DNA from: Desulfococcaceae bacterium
GTDB taxonomy: Bacteria > Desulfobacterota > Desulfobacteria > Desulfobacterales > Desulfosalsimonadaceae
Length of the DNA: 53,899 nucleotides
Assembly: GCA_030145385.1 (NCBI GenBank)
Contig: JAQYVU010000021.1
Span: 1-53,899 of the forward strand
Direction: 5' to 3'
In this document: in pieces, positions 24,609 through 28,325 of the stretch
Position numbering within the stretch: the stretch's first letter is position 1
How the letters are laid out: each line of letters opens with the position of its first letter
Translations under genes and position numbers: made by a program
The notes under the pieces: model-generated
Seen by the model: the letters and a program-made list of their open reading frames with translations, nothing else
Told to the model about the DNA's origin: nothing
Databases searched by the model: none

Positions 24609-25205
24609 TTGGACAACATTGAATCACGTCTGAATGACCTGGTCCGCCGGGCAATTCTTTCAGGAGCGAGTAAAGCCGCGATAATATCGGCTGATACTAT
24701 TTCCGCAGAAGATGATCTGGCAAATCTCTGCCGGGAACCGCAATGCAGAAACTACGGTTTGTCTCCCAGTTGTCCGCCCCATGTCTCCGGACCGTCCGGA
24801 TTTAAAAAATTGTTACAAAATATCAAGCATGCCATTGTTGTCAGGATTGAAATGCCGTCGGCAATCCTGTTTTCCGATGAACGTCGAGATATATTGAAAC
24901 TGCTCCATGAAATCGTTGCCAGTGTTGAGCAGGCCGCTATTAAAACAGGATTTACCGATTCAAAGGCGTTTGCCGGAAGTTCCTGCAAAAAGATTTTTTG
25001 TCATGAACATACCGCGTGCCGGGTCATTGCAAATAATGCTCATTGCCGGAATCCCCAATCGGCCAGGCCATCCATGTCGGGCTATGGCATCAATGTATCA
25101 AAACTGATGCAGGCGGCAGGGTGGCCTTCGGATATCAACATGCGGCAAAAGGAAGCAAAGGAGGAATCAATGTCATGGGTTGCCGGTTTGATTCTCATCG
25201 GCTGA
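24609..25205 (+). CDS. DUF2284 cysteine-rich, predicted metal-binding protein
   Basis: The 198-residue protein holds the cysteine patterns of the DUF2284 family: CREPQCRNYGLSPSCPPHV near residues 39-57 and GSSCKKIFCHEHTACR near 123-138, plus RPSMSGYGINV. Metal or Fe-S binding is inferred from these; the role is unknown and the family is common in anaerobes. The start is TTG at 24609, with AAAGGGG about 10 bases upstream. It follows degV in a likely two-gene operon and converges on cbiB. Confidence 0.85.
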   Translation: MDNIESRLNDLVRRAILSGASKAAIISADTISAEDDLANLCREPQCRNYGLSPSCPPHVSGPSGFKKLLQNIKHAIVVRIEMPSAILFSDERRDILKLLHEIVASVEQAAIKTGFTDSKAFAGSSCKKIFCHEHTACRVIANNAHCRNPQSARPSMSGYGINVSKLMQAAGWPSDINMRQKEAKEESMSWVAGLILIG

Positions 25206-25288
25206 AAAGTGATCATTTAGAAAACAATACCCATAATTTATTTTCAATTGACGTAATGAACGGTTCTTTGGGACACGTTATGCGTTTA

Positions 25289-26284
25289 TCAAATCAACAA
25301 ATCCGTAACCGCCATTACTATCAATGCGAATACCAGGGCAATCCAGGCAGCGCATTGAATAATACGGCAGGCACTTTGAATACAGTCCGGAGTCATTTCT
25401 TTGCCACCATCCCCGAGCCAGGGTTTGTCAATATATCCATAATGATAGATGGTGGGCCCGCCCAAACGAACACCTAAAACCCCGGCAATGGCACTCTCCG
25501 GGTGACCGGAATTGGGAGATGCATGCTTCAGCCGGTCACGCATGGCAATTCGAAAACCGTTTTTTGCGTCATATCCGCATAGAAAAGCCGCTGCGATGAT
25601 AATTAAAACAGATATGCGAGCCGGCACAAAATTAAACCAATCATCGGCTTTAGCTGAAACAAATCCGAATTTTCGATATCGATCATTTCTATACCCGATC
25701 ATGGCATCTAAGGTATTGACGACCCGGTAAAAAACAACACACCCAACGGCAAAGGGTAAAGACGGCCATCCCAATACCCCGGCAAACAGCCCTCCGCAAA
25801 CAAACCAGAAAACAACCGACAAAAACCCGTCAACAAAATTTTCCGCCACGCTTTCAATGGCCGCTCGCACAAGGCCTTCCTTATTCAGCCTGCCGGCGTC
25901 CCGGCCGACGAAGCGCTGAACATATTTTCGGGCTTCGTTTAAATTGTTATCCTGCAGTGTTTTTTTAACAGGAGCGGCATGAACAAAAAGATCCCGGAGT
26001 CCGATAACAGAATAAAGAAAATAAATGCTGATAAGCGTACCGGATTTCGGAAGCCACGCATTTGCAATGAAGTACACAGATAAAGCGCACAAAATGGAAA
26101 TACCGGCTACACTTGCTAACAGCAAAAAACCGCCAAAATATCCGGGCAGTCCGATCTTGAACAAAACACCTTCATTGATGCTGATCAGGTTTCCCATCAA
26201 CCGCACCGGATGGAATCGATATATCGGGTCTCCGATCAAACGGTCTAAAACAAAAGCTGAAAACAAAACTGCAAGTTCAGTCAT
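25289..26284 (-). CDS. cbiB: Adenosylcobinamide-phosphate synthase CbiB
   Basis: CbiB attaches the aminopropanol-type side chain to adenosylcobyric acid in cobalamin synthesis; it is an inner-membrane enzyme. The 331-residue protein starts FVLDRLIGDPIYRFHPVRLMG, and shows GRDAGRLNKEGLVRAAIESVAENFVDG (about residues 124-150), NTLDAMIGYRNDRYRKFG (about 194-211) and SPNSGHPESAIAGVLGVRLGG, all family signatures, with several membrane segments. It lies downstream of a cobalamin riboswitch and of a deleted TonB receptor on the same strand; with only about 140 bases between them, the riboswitch may control it. No other cob genes are in the window. Confidence 0.95.
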   Translation of the reverse strand: MTELAVLFSAFVLDRLIGDPIYRFHPVRLMGNLISINEGVLFKIGLPGYFGGFLLLASVAGISILCALSVYFIANAWLPKSGTLISIYFLYSVIGLRDLFVHAAPVKKTLQDNNLNEARKYVQRFVGRDAGRLNKEGLVRAAIESVAENFVDGFLSVVFWFVCGGLFAGVLGWPSLPFAVGCVVFYRVVNTLDAMIGYRNDRYRKFGFVSAKADDWFNFVPARISVLIIIAAAFLCGYDAKNGFRIAMRDRLKHASPNSGHPESAIAGVLGVRLGGPTIYHYGYIDKPWLGDGGKEMTPDCIQSACRIIQCAAWIALVFALIVMAVTDLLI

Positions 26285-26421
26285 ATTTATTTCCGTATTT
26301 ACCTGTTAATATTTAAAAAACGCTTAAAAATATCGGATCTGACATATTGTTCAATTTTATGTTATCAATTCAGTGCATATTAAATTGCCGCCTGCGGGTT
26401 TGCGGATGTGTTGGTGGGCAG

Positions 26422-26898
26422 CTAACAATACATGCCCTGGCCTTTTGAATCATCATATTCTTCGATCTTAAACAGGTAACCGATTTGAGAGCATGTATTT
26501 ACATGATGAGAAGAGATATTGTCTTTTATCCATTTGAGTGTAAAAATATTTTGGTCGGTTGAAAAATCAGTTTGTGTTTCTTCACTGTTGTTCCAGGACG
26601 GCAGGCCCTGATTTTTCGAAAAAAATTTGTTGATAAAATCTATACGGGCATCAGCATTGATTTTATGGTAAAATACCGGGGTGTTCGATGTATTGACTTC
26701 TCCGGTCTGATAATCATTGTTTACAGATCCTGCAGTTACTACAATCGGGGCCAGAGTCACTGCATCTTCCGCAGCGGCCGGATCTGAAAACGCAATACAG
26801 GTAATTGCGCTGCATATCATCATAAATAAACATGCAGGGACATTAAAGAACACTGAACAATTCCGAATATCAGGCATCTGATTTCCCATAAAACGCAT
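26422..26898 (-). pseudogene. Cobalamin-type TonB-dependent receptor, internally deleted and truncated
   Basis: The frame encodes 158 residues: a signal peptide (VPACLFMMICSAITCIAF, mature end near AAAED), then TLAPIVVTAGSVNNDYQTGE, the TonB-box and plug start of a TonB-dependent receptor. From about residue 85 it passes straight into beta-barrel-like sequence (TDFSTDQNIFTLKWIKDN, QIGYLFKIEEYDD) and ends soon after. An intact receptor is about 600-700 residues. The plug, much of the barrel and the C-terminal Phe strand are missing, so transport is impossible. The frame crosses the deletion without a stop. A riboswitch with its own terminator precedes it, so the intact ancestor probably took up a cobalamin-type corrinoid. 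Confidence 0.7.
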
Positions 26899-26939
26899 TT
26901 CACAAGTGACTGATTCCCGCGTTTTATGATCTCCCTGCC

Positions 26940-26989
26940 AAAAAAAAGGGAAACCCGCGGATCATAGAAAGTGATCTCGCAGATTTCCC
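26940..26989 (-). terminator. Riboswitch expression-platform terminator
   Basis: On the minus strand GGGAAATCTGCG...ATCA pairs with TGATCCGCGGGTTTCCC, allowing G-T pairs and one bulge, and is followed by eight T residues. It lies between the cobalamin aptamer and the receptor remnant, the expected place for a B12-controlled transcription terminator. Confidence 0.85.
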
Positions 26990-27044
26990 TATTTTATCTT
27001 CAAGATGATCGTCCGGATTATTTTTATTGCCTAGAAAACAATCC

Positions 27045-27195
27045 GATTATTCAAGCAGGTCTTCTGACTTTTGGATCATATTACTTGCCGCACCTTCCCC
27101 CGATTATCCGGAGTGGTTTTACGCGGTGTTCATCCCCAATTACAGCGGCGGGCCCGTTTCCGATTTACACGGAATTCCCTATTATGCCTTAATAT
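27045..27195 (-). promoter_or_regulatory. Cobalamin (B12) riboswitch
   Basis: The minus strand carries the conserved blocks of the class I cobalamin aptamer in order: GGGAATTCCGTGTAAATC, ACGGGCCCGCCGCTGTAAT, CCACTCCGG, GGGGGAAGG and the B12 box AGTCAGAAGACCTGC (27054-27068). It faces the receptor remnant and cbiB, and is followed by a terminator. In known examples adenosylcobalamin binding represses the downstream genes. A perfect 11-base hairpin (27194-27224) adjoins its 5' side. Confidence 0.93.
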
Positions 27196-27224
27196 AAATG
27201 CGAAGAGTATATATTCGCATTTAT
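27194..27224. repeat. Perfect hairpin next to the riboswitch
   Basis: ATAAATGCGAA (27194-27204) and TTCGCATTTAT (27214-27224) are exact reverse complements around 9 bases. It may be an operator, or part of the 5' leader of the riboswitch transcript. Confidence 0.5.
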
Positions 27225-27368
27225 CAGCGCTTGAACAAAAAAGCATTTATATTGTTTAAAAAGCGTAAGTCAAGAAATAAATTTTGACATATTGCCCGGT
27301 ATCATTTAACGAGAACAAGAATAATGTGACATCAACTTGTTAATTTTAAAAAAATCGGATCATCAAAT

Positions 27369-28325
27369 ATGGATTCCATGTATAAAAATCTTGCGCTGAA
27401 CCTTGTGCGCGTCACCGAGTCTGCAGCTCTGGCTGCCGGCAGATTTCTGGGGAAAGGGCTTAAGGAAGCCGGGGACGGAGCGGCAGTGGATGCCATGAGA
27501 AACGCTTTTTCCACAATTGACATCAATGGGTCTATTATCATCGGCGAAGGCGAAAAAGACAACGCCCCCATGCTCTATAACGGCGAAAAGGTGGGTAACG
27601 GAAACGGCCTGGACCTTGACCTTGCCGTTGACCCGGTGGAAGGTACCAATCTGCTGGCACTCGGGCGTCCCAATGCTATTGCCGTGGTCGGCGCATGCCC
27701 GGCCGGAAACATGTATGACCCGGGTCCCAGCTATTACATGAAAAAAATTGTCGGTCCGCCGGAAGCAGCCAAAGTCATTGATATCAACGCACCTGTTAAG
27801 GATAATTTAACAAACATTGCCAAAGCCATTGGAAAATCCGTGGAAGAACTGGTCGTGTTTGTGCTTGAAAAACCCAGGCATGATCAGCTGATTGCGGACA
27901 TCCGGAAAACCGGCGCGTGTATCCAGTTGCACACGGACGGCGATGTGGCGGGCTCATTGATGGCGGTTAACCCGGATTCTGACGTTGATGTAATGATGGG
28001 CACCGGCGGGACACCCGAAGGCGTTATTTCCGCGTGCGCCATCCGGGCGCTGGGCGGGCAGATGTTTGCGCATCTTGACCCCCAGAGTGAGGCCGAGCGC
28101 CAGGCTATCCAATCCTACGGCACCGACCTGAATGAAATTCTGACCGTGGAAACCCTTATTACCAGCGATGATGCGTTTTTTGCCGCCACCGGCATTTCCG
28201 GGGGATCATTTCTGTCGGGTGTCAAATATCATTCCAAAGGGGCAATTTCACATTCCATGATTTTAAACGGCAGAACCGGCACGGTAAGATTTATTAAATC
28301 TTACCATAATCGCCCGTTGACATGA
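27369..28325 (+). CDS. glpX: Class II fructose-1,6-bisphosphatase GlpX
   Basis: GlpX hydrolyses fructose 1,6-bisphosphate in gluconeogenesis. The 318-residue protein shows the class II marks: RVTESAALAAGRFLGKG at the N-terminus, IIGEGEKDNAPMLY (about 56-69), the metal site DLAVDPVEGTNLLA (about 85-98), HTDGDVAGSL and MMGTGGTPEGV. It is cytoplasmic and metal dependent. The ATG at 27369 has only a weak GGA upstream; a second ATG lies 9 bases on. The gene appears monocistronic. A perfect 10-base inverted repeat lies inside its last codons. Confidence 0.96.
   Translation: MDSMYKNLALNLVRVTESAALAAGRFLGKGLKEAGDGAAVDAMRNAFSTIDINGSIIIGEGEKDNAPMLYNGEKVGNGNGLDLDLAVDPVEGTNLLALGRPNAIAVVGACPAGNMYDPGPSYYMKKIVGPPEAAKVIDINAPVKDNLTNIAKAIGKSVEELVVFVLEKPRHDQLIADIRKTGACIQLHTDGDVAGSLMAVNPDSDVDVMMGTGGTPEGVISACAIRALGGQMFAHLDPQSEAERQAIQSYGTDLNEILTVETLITSDDAFFAATGISGGSFLSGVKYHSKGAISHSMILNGRTGTVRFIKSYHNRPLT
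28283..28305. repeat. Perfect inverted repeat inside the 3' end of glpX
   Basis: GGTAAGATTT and AAATCTTACC flank ATT. The sequence lies in the last 15 codons of glpX, and no T run follows, so it is a weak terminator candidate at best. Confidence 0.4.

Follow-up and report, generated by a model that had tools for sequence, protein, structure and literature searches.

What a cobalamin riboswitch controls when the receptor gene behind it has been reduced to a fragment, and only a biosynthesis gene further downstream is intact, is the question raised by a locus in the genome of a Desulfococcaceae bacterium (assembly GCA_030145385.1, here G000). The locus lies on contig JAQYVU010000021.1, which was analysed as a single stretch of 53,899 nucleotides (the window). 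The best explanation, and in our view a probable one, is that a riboswitch-controlled corrinoid operon was pruned by deletion to the indispensable cbiB gene, leaving an attenuator that is read through into it.

The riboswitch and the gene behind it

The following elements of the locus were identified.

27246..27273, minus strand: promoter-like sequence TTGACT-16-TATAAA, found by eye, immediately 5' of the aptamer
27037..27237, minus strand: cobalamin riboswitch aptamer (RF00174; 95.6 bits, E 1.3e-22, model positions 1-189)
27013..27045, minus strand: P13-like hairpin 3' of the aptamer, in the minimum-energy fold of the leader
26974..27006, minus strand: predicted antiterminator, 27006-26996 pairing with 26984-26974
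26940..26990, minus strand: intrinsic terminator, with a 5' arm at 26990-26973 and a 3' arm at 26963-26948, ending in eight U (26947-26940)
26422..26898, minus strand: 158-aa ORF, the scar of a BtuB-like receptor gene, with an N-terminal piece at 26656-26877 and a barrel piece at 26437-26658
25289..26284, minus strand: cbiB, adenosylcobinamide-phosphate synthase (PF03186, E 9.2e-88)

The aptamer scores above the RF00174 gathering threshold of 31.5 bits, and a search of the whole genome recovered the same element at 27037-27246 with 97.3 bits. Its core (27190-27037) is 88-91% identical to those of three congeners, and the terminator is 88-94% identical, as compared with 58-63% for the leader directly downstream. 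The segment 26926-27036 has a folding energy of -40 kcal/mol, the mean for shuffled sequences being -23.3 (z -5.16, equalled by 0 of 200 shuffles). When the 3' arm of the terminator is left out of the fold, ten pairs of the antiterminator form with probabilities of 0.77-0.97, and 10 of the 11 bases in its upstream arm are invariant across five leaders. The hairpin at 27013..27045 is what we take to be a P13-like element. As judged by these predicted structures, the leader is a classic antiterminator-terminator platform of an RF00174 riboswitch, in which the 5' arm of the terminator can alternatively pair upstream and both alternatives are conserved. Within the promoter-like region, CTTGACTT is identical in all five aligned leaders, and the whole region is just 53-78% identical to its counterparts in congeners; it was not listed by the promoter scan because the scan demands T as the last base of the second hexamer. 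Similarly, a simple scan of 25200-27400 listed zero terminators, the riboswitch terminator being missed since only loops of 3-8 are permitted.

The product of cbiB passes the equivalog cut-off of TIGR00380 (220.1 against 165.9 bits) and is the sole PF03186 match in the genome. The gene lies 137 bases from the scar ORF. The preliminary description of this locus had reported a conserved B12 aptamer and terminator, a gutted receptor, and cbiB about 140 bases downstream, all of which agree with the present results, in which cbiB is the sole intact gene remaining behind the switch; the range that it gave located the riboswitch but, ending at 27195, trimmed ~40 bases from the 5' end of the aptamer. 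As a cobalamin riboswitch the aptamer is unremarkable, and the pruned operon is the instructive part.

The receptor scar

The two pieces of the scar correspond to residues 1-74 and 261-334 of the 684-aa receptor of a congener (G001), with 58% and 76% identity respectively, so that ~187 codons are missing between them and all receptor sequence past residue 334 is absent. A BtuB receptor has a plug domain and a complete barrel; the scar ORF has lost its plug and the greater part of its barrel. No Pfam family was found for the 158-aa ORF at E<=1, nor any TonB-receptor family in Pfam or NCBIfam at the same threshold, and the cut-off of the BtuB model TIGR01779 was not reached. A signal-peptide-like N-terminus and the motif TLAPIVVTAG, which we take to be TonB-box-like, are recognisable by eye.

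For the scar pieces, dN between the window and congeners is 0.149-0.402, and that between intact copies is 0.097-0.528; for the barrel piece it is slightly higher for pairs that include the window (0.149-0.193 versus 0.097-0.163). The dN/dS values, for which some dS are saturated, range from 0.07 to 0.32 in pairs with the window and from 0.10 to 0.46 among intact copies. As the former are about within the intact range, the deletions look recent, or else the pieces are under selection. If the deletions are recent, the conservation of the switch may be inherited, and is then no proof of present use.

The intact operon in congeners

In two congeners, G002 and G003, the riboswitch is followed by genes for the receptor and a 409-aa propeller protein and then by cobD and cbiB. 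Their contigs stop in or shortly after cbiB, the G003 copy being truncated by the contig end, and cobD and cbiB are open frames as far as the contigs reach, with cbiB overlapping or abutting cobD. G001 retains the riboswitch, receptor and propeller genes, followed by a broken cobD/cbiB and then cobQ. Of the 376 residues encoded by cobD, 5-143 remain here, and of the 334 encoded by cbiB, 99-330 (the first ~98 being lost); a deletion joins the two genes (L037 4088-5304), and an insert in cbiB contains 25 unknown bases. G001 has a further cobQ-cobD-cbiB set on contig C360, in which cbiB is cut by the contig end. The operon of the congeners, as reconstructed from these assemblies, thus consists of a riboswitch, a receptor, a BtuG-like propeller, cobD and cbiB.

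A complete receptor (684-703 aa) is present in three other species of the genus, and at E<=1e-40 the receptor is found in 6 of 36 genomes of the family, including 3 of 10 other genomes of the genus. The G002 receptor includes both plug (PF07715) and barrel (PF00593), and its match to B. thetaiotaomicron BtuB1 spans residues 42-681 (E 3.7e-20). With TIGR01779, the intact congener receptor scores 154.6 bits against a cut-off of 599.7, the G002 copy lying far below that threshold, and it is BtuB-like only.

Comparison with these operons, using blastn coordinates to compute junction positions and losses, shows that ~4 kb has gone from the window in three deletions.

26657..26663, minus strand: deletion junction 1; 561 bp lost relative to G001 and G002, 573 relative to G003; in frame
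26428..26438, minus strand: deletion junction 2; ~2,385 bp lost relative to G002 and 2,365 relative to G003, comprising the remainder of the receptor gene and the propeller gene
26375..26428, minus strand: scrap of the propeller-cobD intergenic region, with the 3' half of an intercistronic hairpin of which the 5' half is deleted
26310..26375, minus strand: deletion junction 3 and eroded, weakly alignable cobD; ~1,029 bp lost relative to G002, 1,041 relative to G003
26285..26310, minus strand: last cobD codons, now the 5' leader of cbiB; the blastn match to G002 starts 26 bases upstream of cbiB

Despite three deletions, the promoter-like sequence, aptamer, predicted antiterminator, terminator and cbiB have all been retained. 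The preliminary description had proposed that the switch changed from import control to synthesis control. This is contradicted by the three congeners, where cobD and cbiB are already in place behind the two import genes; as cbiB was already part of the switch-led operon there, it inherited the switch, and the operon was pruned rather than its control re-targeted.

In two of the congeners, the intercistronic hairpin (L038 2347-2455 in G002 and L039 4359-4461 in G003; -35 and -36 kcal/mol) is long and strong and lies between the import genes and cobD, and by eye its stem has compensating changes. A second cobalamin riboswitch adjoins the import-operon switch in all three congeners at the side where the window has glpX, and the genes that it leads would lie past the ends of the contigs.

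L037 178-361, L038 6226-6414 and L039 139-259, opposite direction: second riboswitch of the congeners

Read-through into cbiB

From the anatomy of the locus, the antiterminator would form at low adenosylcobalamin, and RNA polymerase would traverse the scar and the 137 bases behind it, a read-through of ~0.65 kb, into cbiB. At high adenosylcobalamin the terminator would form, and cbiB would be switched off along with the other switch-led cob genes. Deletion of the 5' half of the intercistronic hairpin may have eased read-through. As judged by eye, the fold of the spacer 26285-26450 is without a strong hairpin and U-run. The simple scan also found no terminator between the scar and cbiB, which is weak evidence because the terminator of the riboswitch itself escaped that scan.

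Two other identities for the spacer were considered and rejected. The conserved spacer motif GTTAGYTGCCCRCYAACA is neither a mobile repeat nor an unknown riboswitch, as it gave 4 matches in 60 genomes against 3 for a reversed control. With one mismatch allowed, these were in G000, G002, G003 and G005; the G005 copy is within a coding gene, and in G002 and G003 the motif is part of the intercistronic hairpin. Nor is the spacer as a whole a repeated element, since besides itself it had 10 short matches, the best with E 0.017.

It is unlikely that the switch has been decoupled, with cbiB transcribed mainly from a promoter of its own in the 137-base gap and the riboswitch and scar a decaying leftover. 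A weak promoter-like match (9/12) is present at 26383-26354, and the deletions seem too recent for decay to be visible. However, 25200-27400 has only 3 promoter-like sites, whereas shuffled sequences have a mean of 6.3, and the -35 sequence, antiterminator and terminator have all been kept. Given that cbiB overlaps or abuts cobD in G002 and G003, an inherited private promoter would also be unexpected.

Since the scar was found in a single genome, the positions of the junctions rest on one assembly, a draft. No second genome with the same scar was found among 59 others or in a scan of contigs, which may omit near-identical records. The scar might then be a chimera or a collapsed consensus, the living genome having an intact operon, but this is very improbable. 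The missing middle and end of the receptor were not found elsewhere in the genome, where the five other matches are distant receptors; there are three separate junctions; the homology at junction 1 is merely a few bases, which would be far below the word length of an assembler; and the flanking genes are ordinary for the genus.

That the 158-aa ORF encodes a small, secreted and functional protein with a TonB box, such as a decoy or sink for TonB, is the least credible alternative and can hardly be right: the frame does stay open across the in-frame 561-bp deletion, a signal-peptide-like start and a TonB-box-like motif are visible by eye, and dN/dS is not clearly elevated, but recency accounts for the latter, the C-terminal residues derive from intergenic sequence, and no short-ORF counterpart was found at E<=1e-5 in the 59 other genomes (all matches being in frames of 681-756 aa) or in the contig scan.

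Genomic position of the module

The pruned operon, read as above, is flanked by two genes in the opposite orientation.

24609..25205, plus strand: DUF2284 gene, left flank (PF10050), immediately before glpX in G002
27369..28325, plus strand: glpX, right flank (PF03320; synteny)

The neighbourhood was compared with five congener stretches around glpX. In G002, DUF2284 and glpX are separated by 25 bases; in G005, a single frame behind DegV starts, by eye, like DUF2284 and runs into glpX; in G009, glpX adjoins DegV; and G004 and G008 have different genes before glpX. The DegV/DUF2284-glpX neighbourhood is hence closed up in three of the five and interrupted in the window at 25206-27368, and the module of riboswitch, scar and cbiB between DUF2284 and glpX was therefore probably inserted or moved there. 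A search for terminal or target-site repeats of an inserted module gave nothing convincing.

Corrinoid uptake and other riboswitches in the genome

A total of six cobalamin riboswitches were found in the genome. One, on contig C47, leads BtuF-, BtuC- and BtuD-like genes, all of which score below the NCBIfam cut-offs for those names. Another, on contig C165, precedes genes for a DUF4465 protein and for a TonB receptor that is BtuB-like, with a score below the BtuB cut-off.

L049 8426-12448: C165 riboswitch locus, with a DUF4465 protein with a CFI-box end, the BtuB-like receptor and a 295-aa protein

The 295-aa protein has no Pfam or NCBIfam match at E<=0.01. DUF4465 (IPR027828) is described, in the portion of PMC12751083 drawn on here, as the family of the cobamide-binding BtuJ proteins. 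Corrinoid uptake thus looks to have been kept elsewhere in the genome. The preliminary description had taken uptake to be lost here, which holds at this locus; a loss from the genome as a whole was rejected in view of these like-named genes behind two other riboswitches, all with scores under their cut-offs. It had also proposed looking for another BtuB, for which the C165 receptor is a good candidate, not a proven one, with its score under the BtuB cut-off.

TonB receptors on contigs C83, C16 and C42 were rejected as B12 receptors, as by eye their neighbours (a gene for a peptide-type binding protein, a nucleoside-hydrolase-like gene and an ABC cluster) are not B12 genes; none of the three is at any of the six riboswitches.

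On contig C85 (L050 7984-9854), a strong cobalamin riboswitch (114 bits) is followed by a terminator-like sequence, a hairpin-like repeat, and then genes for a MIF-like tautomerase and a NUDIX protein. To our knowledge, neither of these is a B12 gene, and this is possibly another orphaned switch.

The main cob operon

The main cob operon, on contig C104, lies behind another cobalamin riboswitch and includes a gene for a CobD-CobQ fusion but no cbiB. Its other products match CbiK, CobB, CbiC, CbiL, CbiD, CbiE, CbiF, CbiG, CbiH and CbiJ, those to CbiK, CbiC and CbiG being below their cut-offs. A switch-led cluster on contig C87 encodes CobS, CbiR, CobU, a ThiC-type protein and CobT. Given a main operon without cbiB, the window copy would have to supply CbiB. 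With a draft assembly of 209 contigs, 97.04% complete and with 4.23% contamination, a second cbiB could sit in a gap.

In G005, cbiB is located precisely between the fusion gene and cobB. On either flank of this position the main operons of G000 and G005 align collinearly for 3.3 kb (84% and 88% DNA identity), and the ~0.95-kb stretch in between, which contains cbiB, is present in G005 only. Among ten loci with a full CobD-CobQ fusion, cbiB comes next in six, cobB without cbiB in three (including G000), and neither within the stretch compared in one. Loss of cbiB from the main operon in this lineage is likely from this comparison; as two other genomes are also without cbiB between the fusion and cobB, G000 may lack it there for a reason other than loss in the lineage. 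In a tree, the window cbiB clusters with the import-operon copies of G002 and G003 (100/99), apart from the main-operon type of G005, with which it shares 34% identity.

The two operons of G000 are complementary in gene content, each missing genes that the other carries, and G001 appears to be a mirror image of this. It is conceivable, at somewhat less than even chances, that the two switch-led operons became interdependent: the main operon lost cbiB, and the import operon moved between DUF2284 and glpX and was pruned, G001 being the mirror case in which the import half is kept and the synthesis half broken. The import operon would then have shed the receptor, the propeller, cobD and half of the intercistronic hairpin, and the switch would have become the proximal regulator of the sole cbiB in the genome.

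The lost propeller

In 11 of 11 loci of congeners and relatives from the order (L037-L047), which were selected by receptor similarity, a gene for a propeller protein directly follows the receptor gene. The protein is ~400 aa, and a cobalamin riboswitch is upstream in all 11, within 0.7 kb in nine and at ~1.2 kb in L043 and ~3 kb in L046. By sequence, comparison of the propeller with the PDB gave no BtuG match, the best being designed propellers. An AlphaFold2 model of the G003 protein was built from a two-row alignment and is of modest confidence (pLDDT 59.3, pTM 0.64). With this model, the best 10 Foldseek matches were BtuG entries, and the first three in VIA-align were BtuG with Z 20.9-21.1; E. 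coli YncE, at Z 19.9, ranks above some BtuG entries, BtuG1 having 21.1 and one entry for BtuG2 19.8. The predicted fold of the lost propeller thus ranks BtuG first, and the protein may be BtuG-like.

BtuG has a lipobox cysteine near its N-terminus, according to the passages of PMC6143338 drawn on here. By eye, the G003 propeller is without a cysteine in residues 1-40, and the G002 propeller has a single one in that range, inside the hydrophobic stretch. The congener copies, also by eye, have a C-terminal Cys-Phe-Ile motif and no lipobox. The same passages report BtuG as exclusive to Bacteroidetes, from BlastP in 313 gut genomes (PMC6143338), and no report of BtuG together with 'Desulfo' was found in the literature searched.

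Comparison with known systems and significance

Like the RF00174 switches that lead btuB-type import genes, the window has an aptamer, P13-like hairpin, antiterminator and intrinsic terminator, and the congener switch likewise leads a BtuB-like receptor. Unlike in those loci, the receptor in the window has been reduced to a scar, and a biosynthesis gene is all that is intact behind the switch. In the excerpts of PMC8123684 used here, a cobalamin riboswitch before btuB is well established, and one is located upstream of cbiB in Propionibacterium freudenreichii DSM 20270 and is described as differing in structure from that of E. coli btuB. The P. freudenreichii case is alike in that a cobalamin riboswitch precedes cbiB; the bacterium is unrelated, and those excerpts mention no import-gene scar (PMC8123684). 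In B. thetaiotaomicron, as far as described in the parts of PMC10404256 and PMC6143338 consulted, a riboswitch-led BtuB receptor adjoins a seven-bladed propeller, and the congeners are alike in having a riboswitch-led receptor beside a propeller. They differ in being Desulfobacteraceae relatives, in a propeller without the lipobox cysteine, and in cobD and cbiB sharing the operon, whereas in the window both import genes are lost. A search of the literature on riboswitches before pseudogenes, or re-targeted, yielded no comparable case among the papers listed, as judged by title and the opening of the abstract.

One way in which a riboswitch may come to stand before a single biosynthesis gene is thus by deletion of intervening genes and not by acquisition of a new target. 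Since cobalamin riboswitch-led cbiB is already known, the instructive aspects are the pruning of a mixed operon and the complementary loss that may have occurred in a second one. With the complementary gene content in G000 and its mirror case in G001, related genomes offer a means of testing this idea. A pair comprising a BtuB-like receptor and a predicted BtuG-like propeller behind cobalamin riboswitches in this order also came to light, although BtuG was described as exclusive to Bacteroidetes in the excerpted account (PMC6143338).
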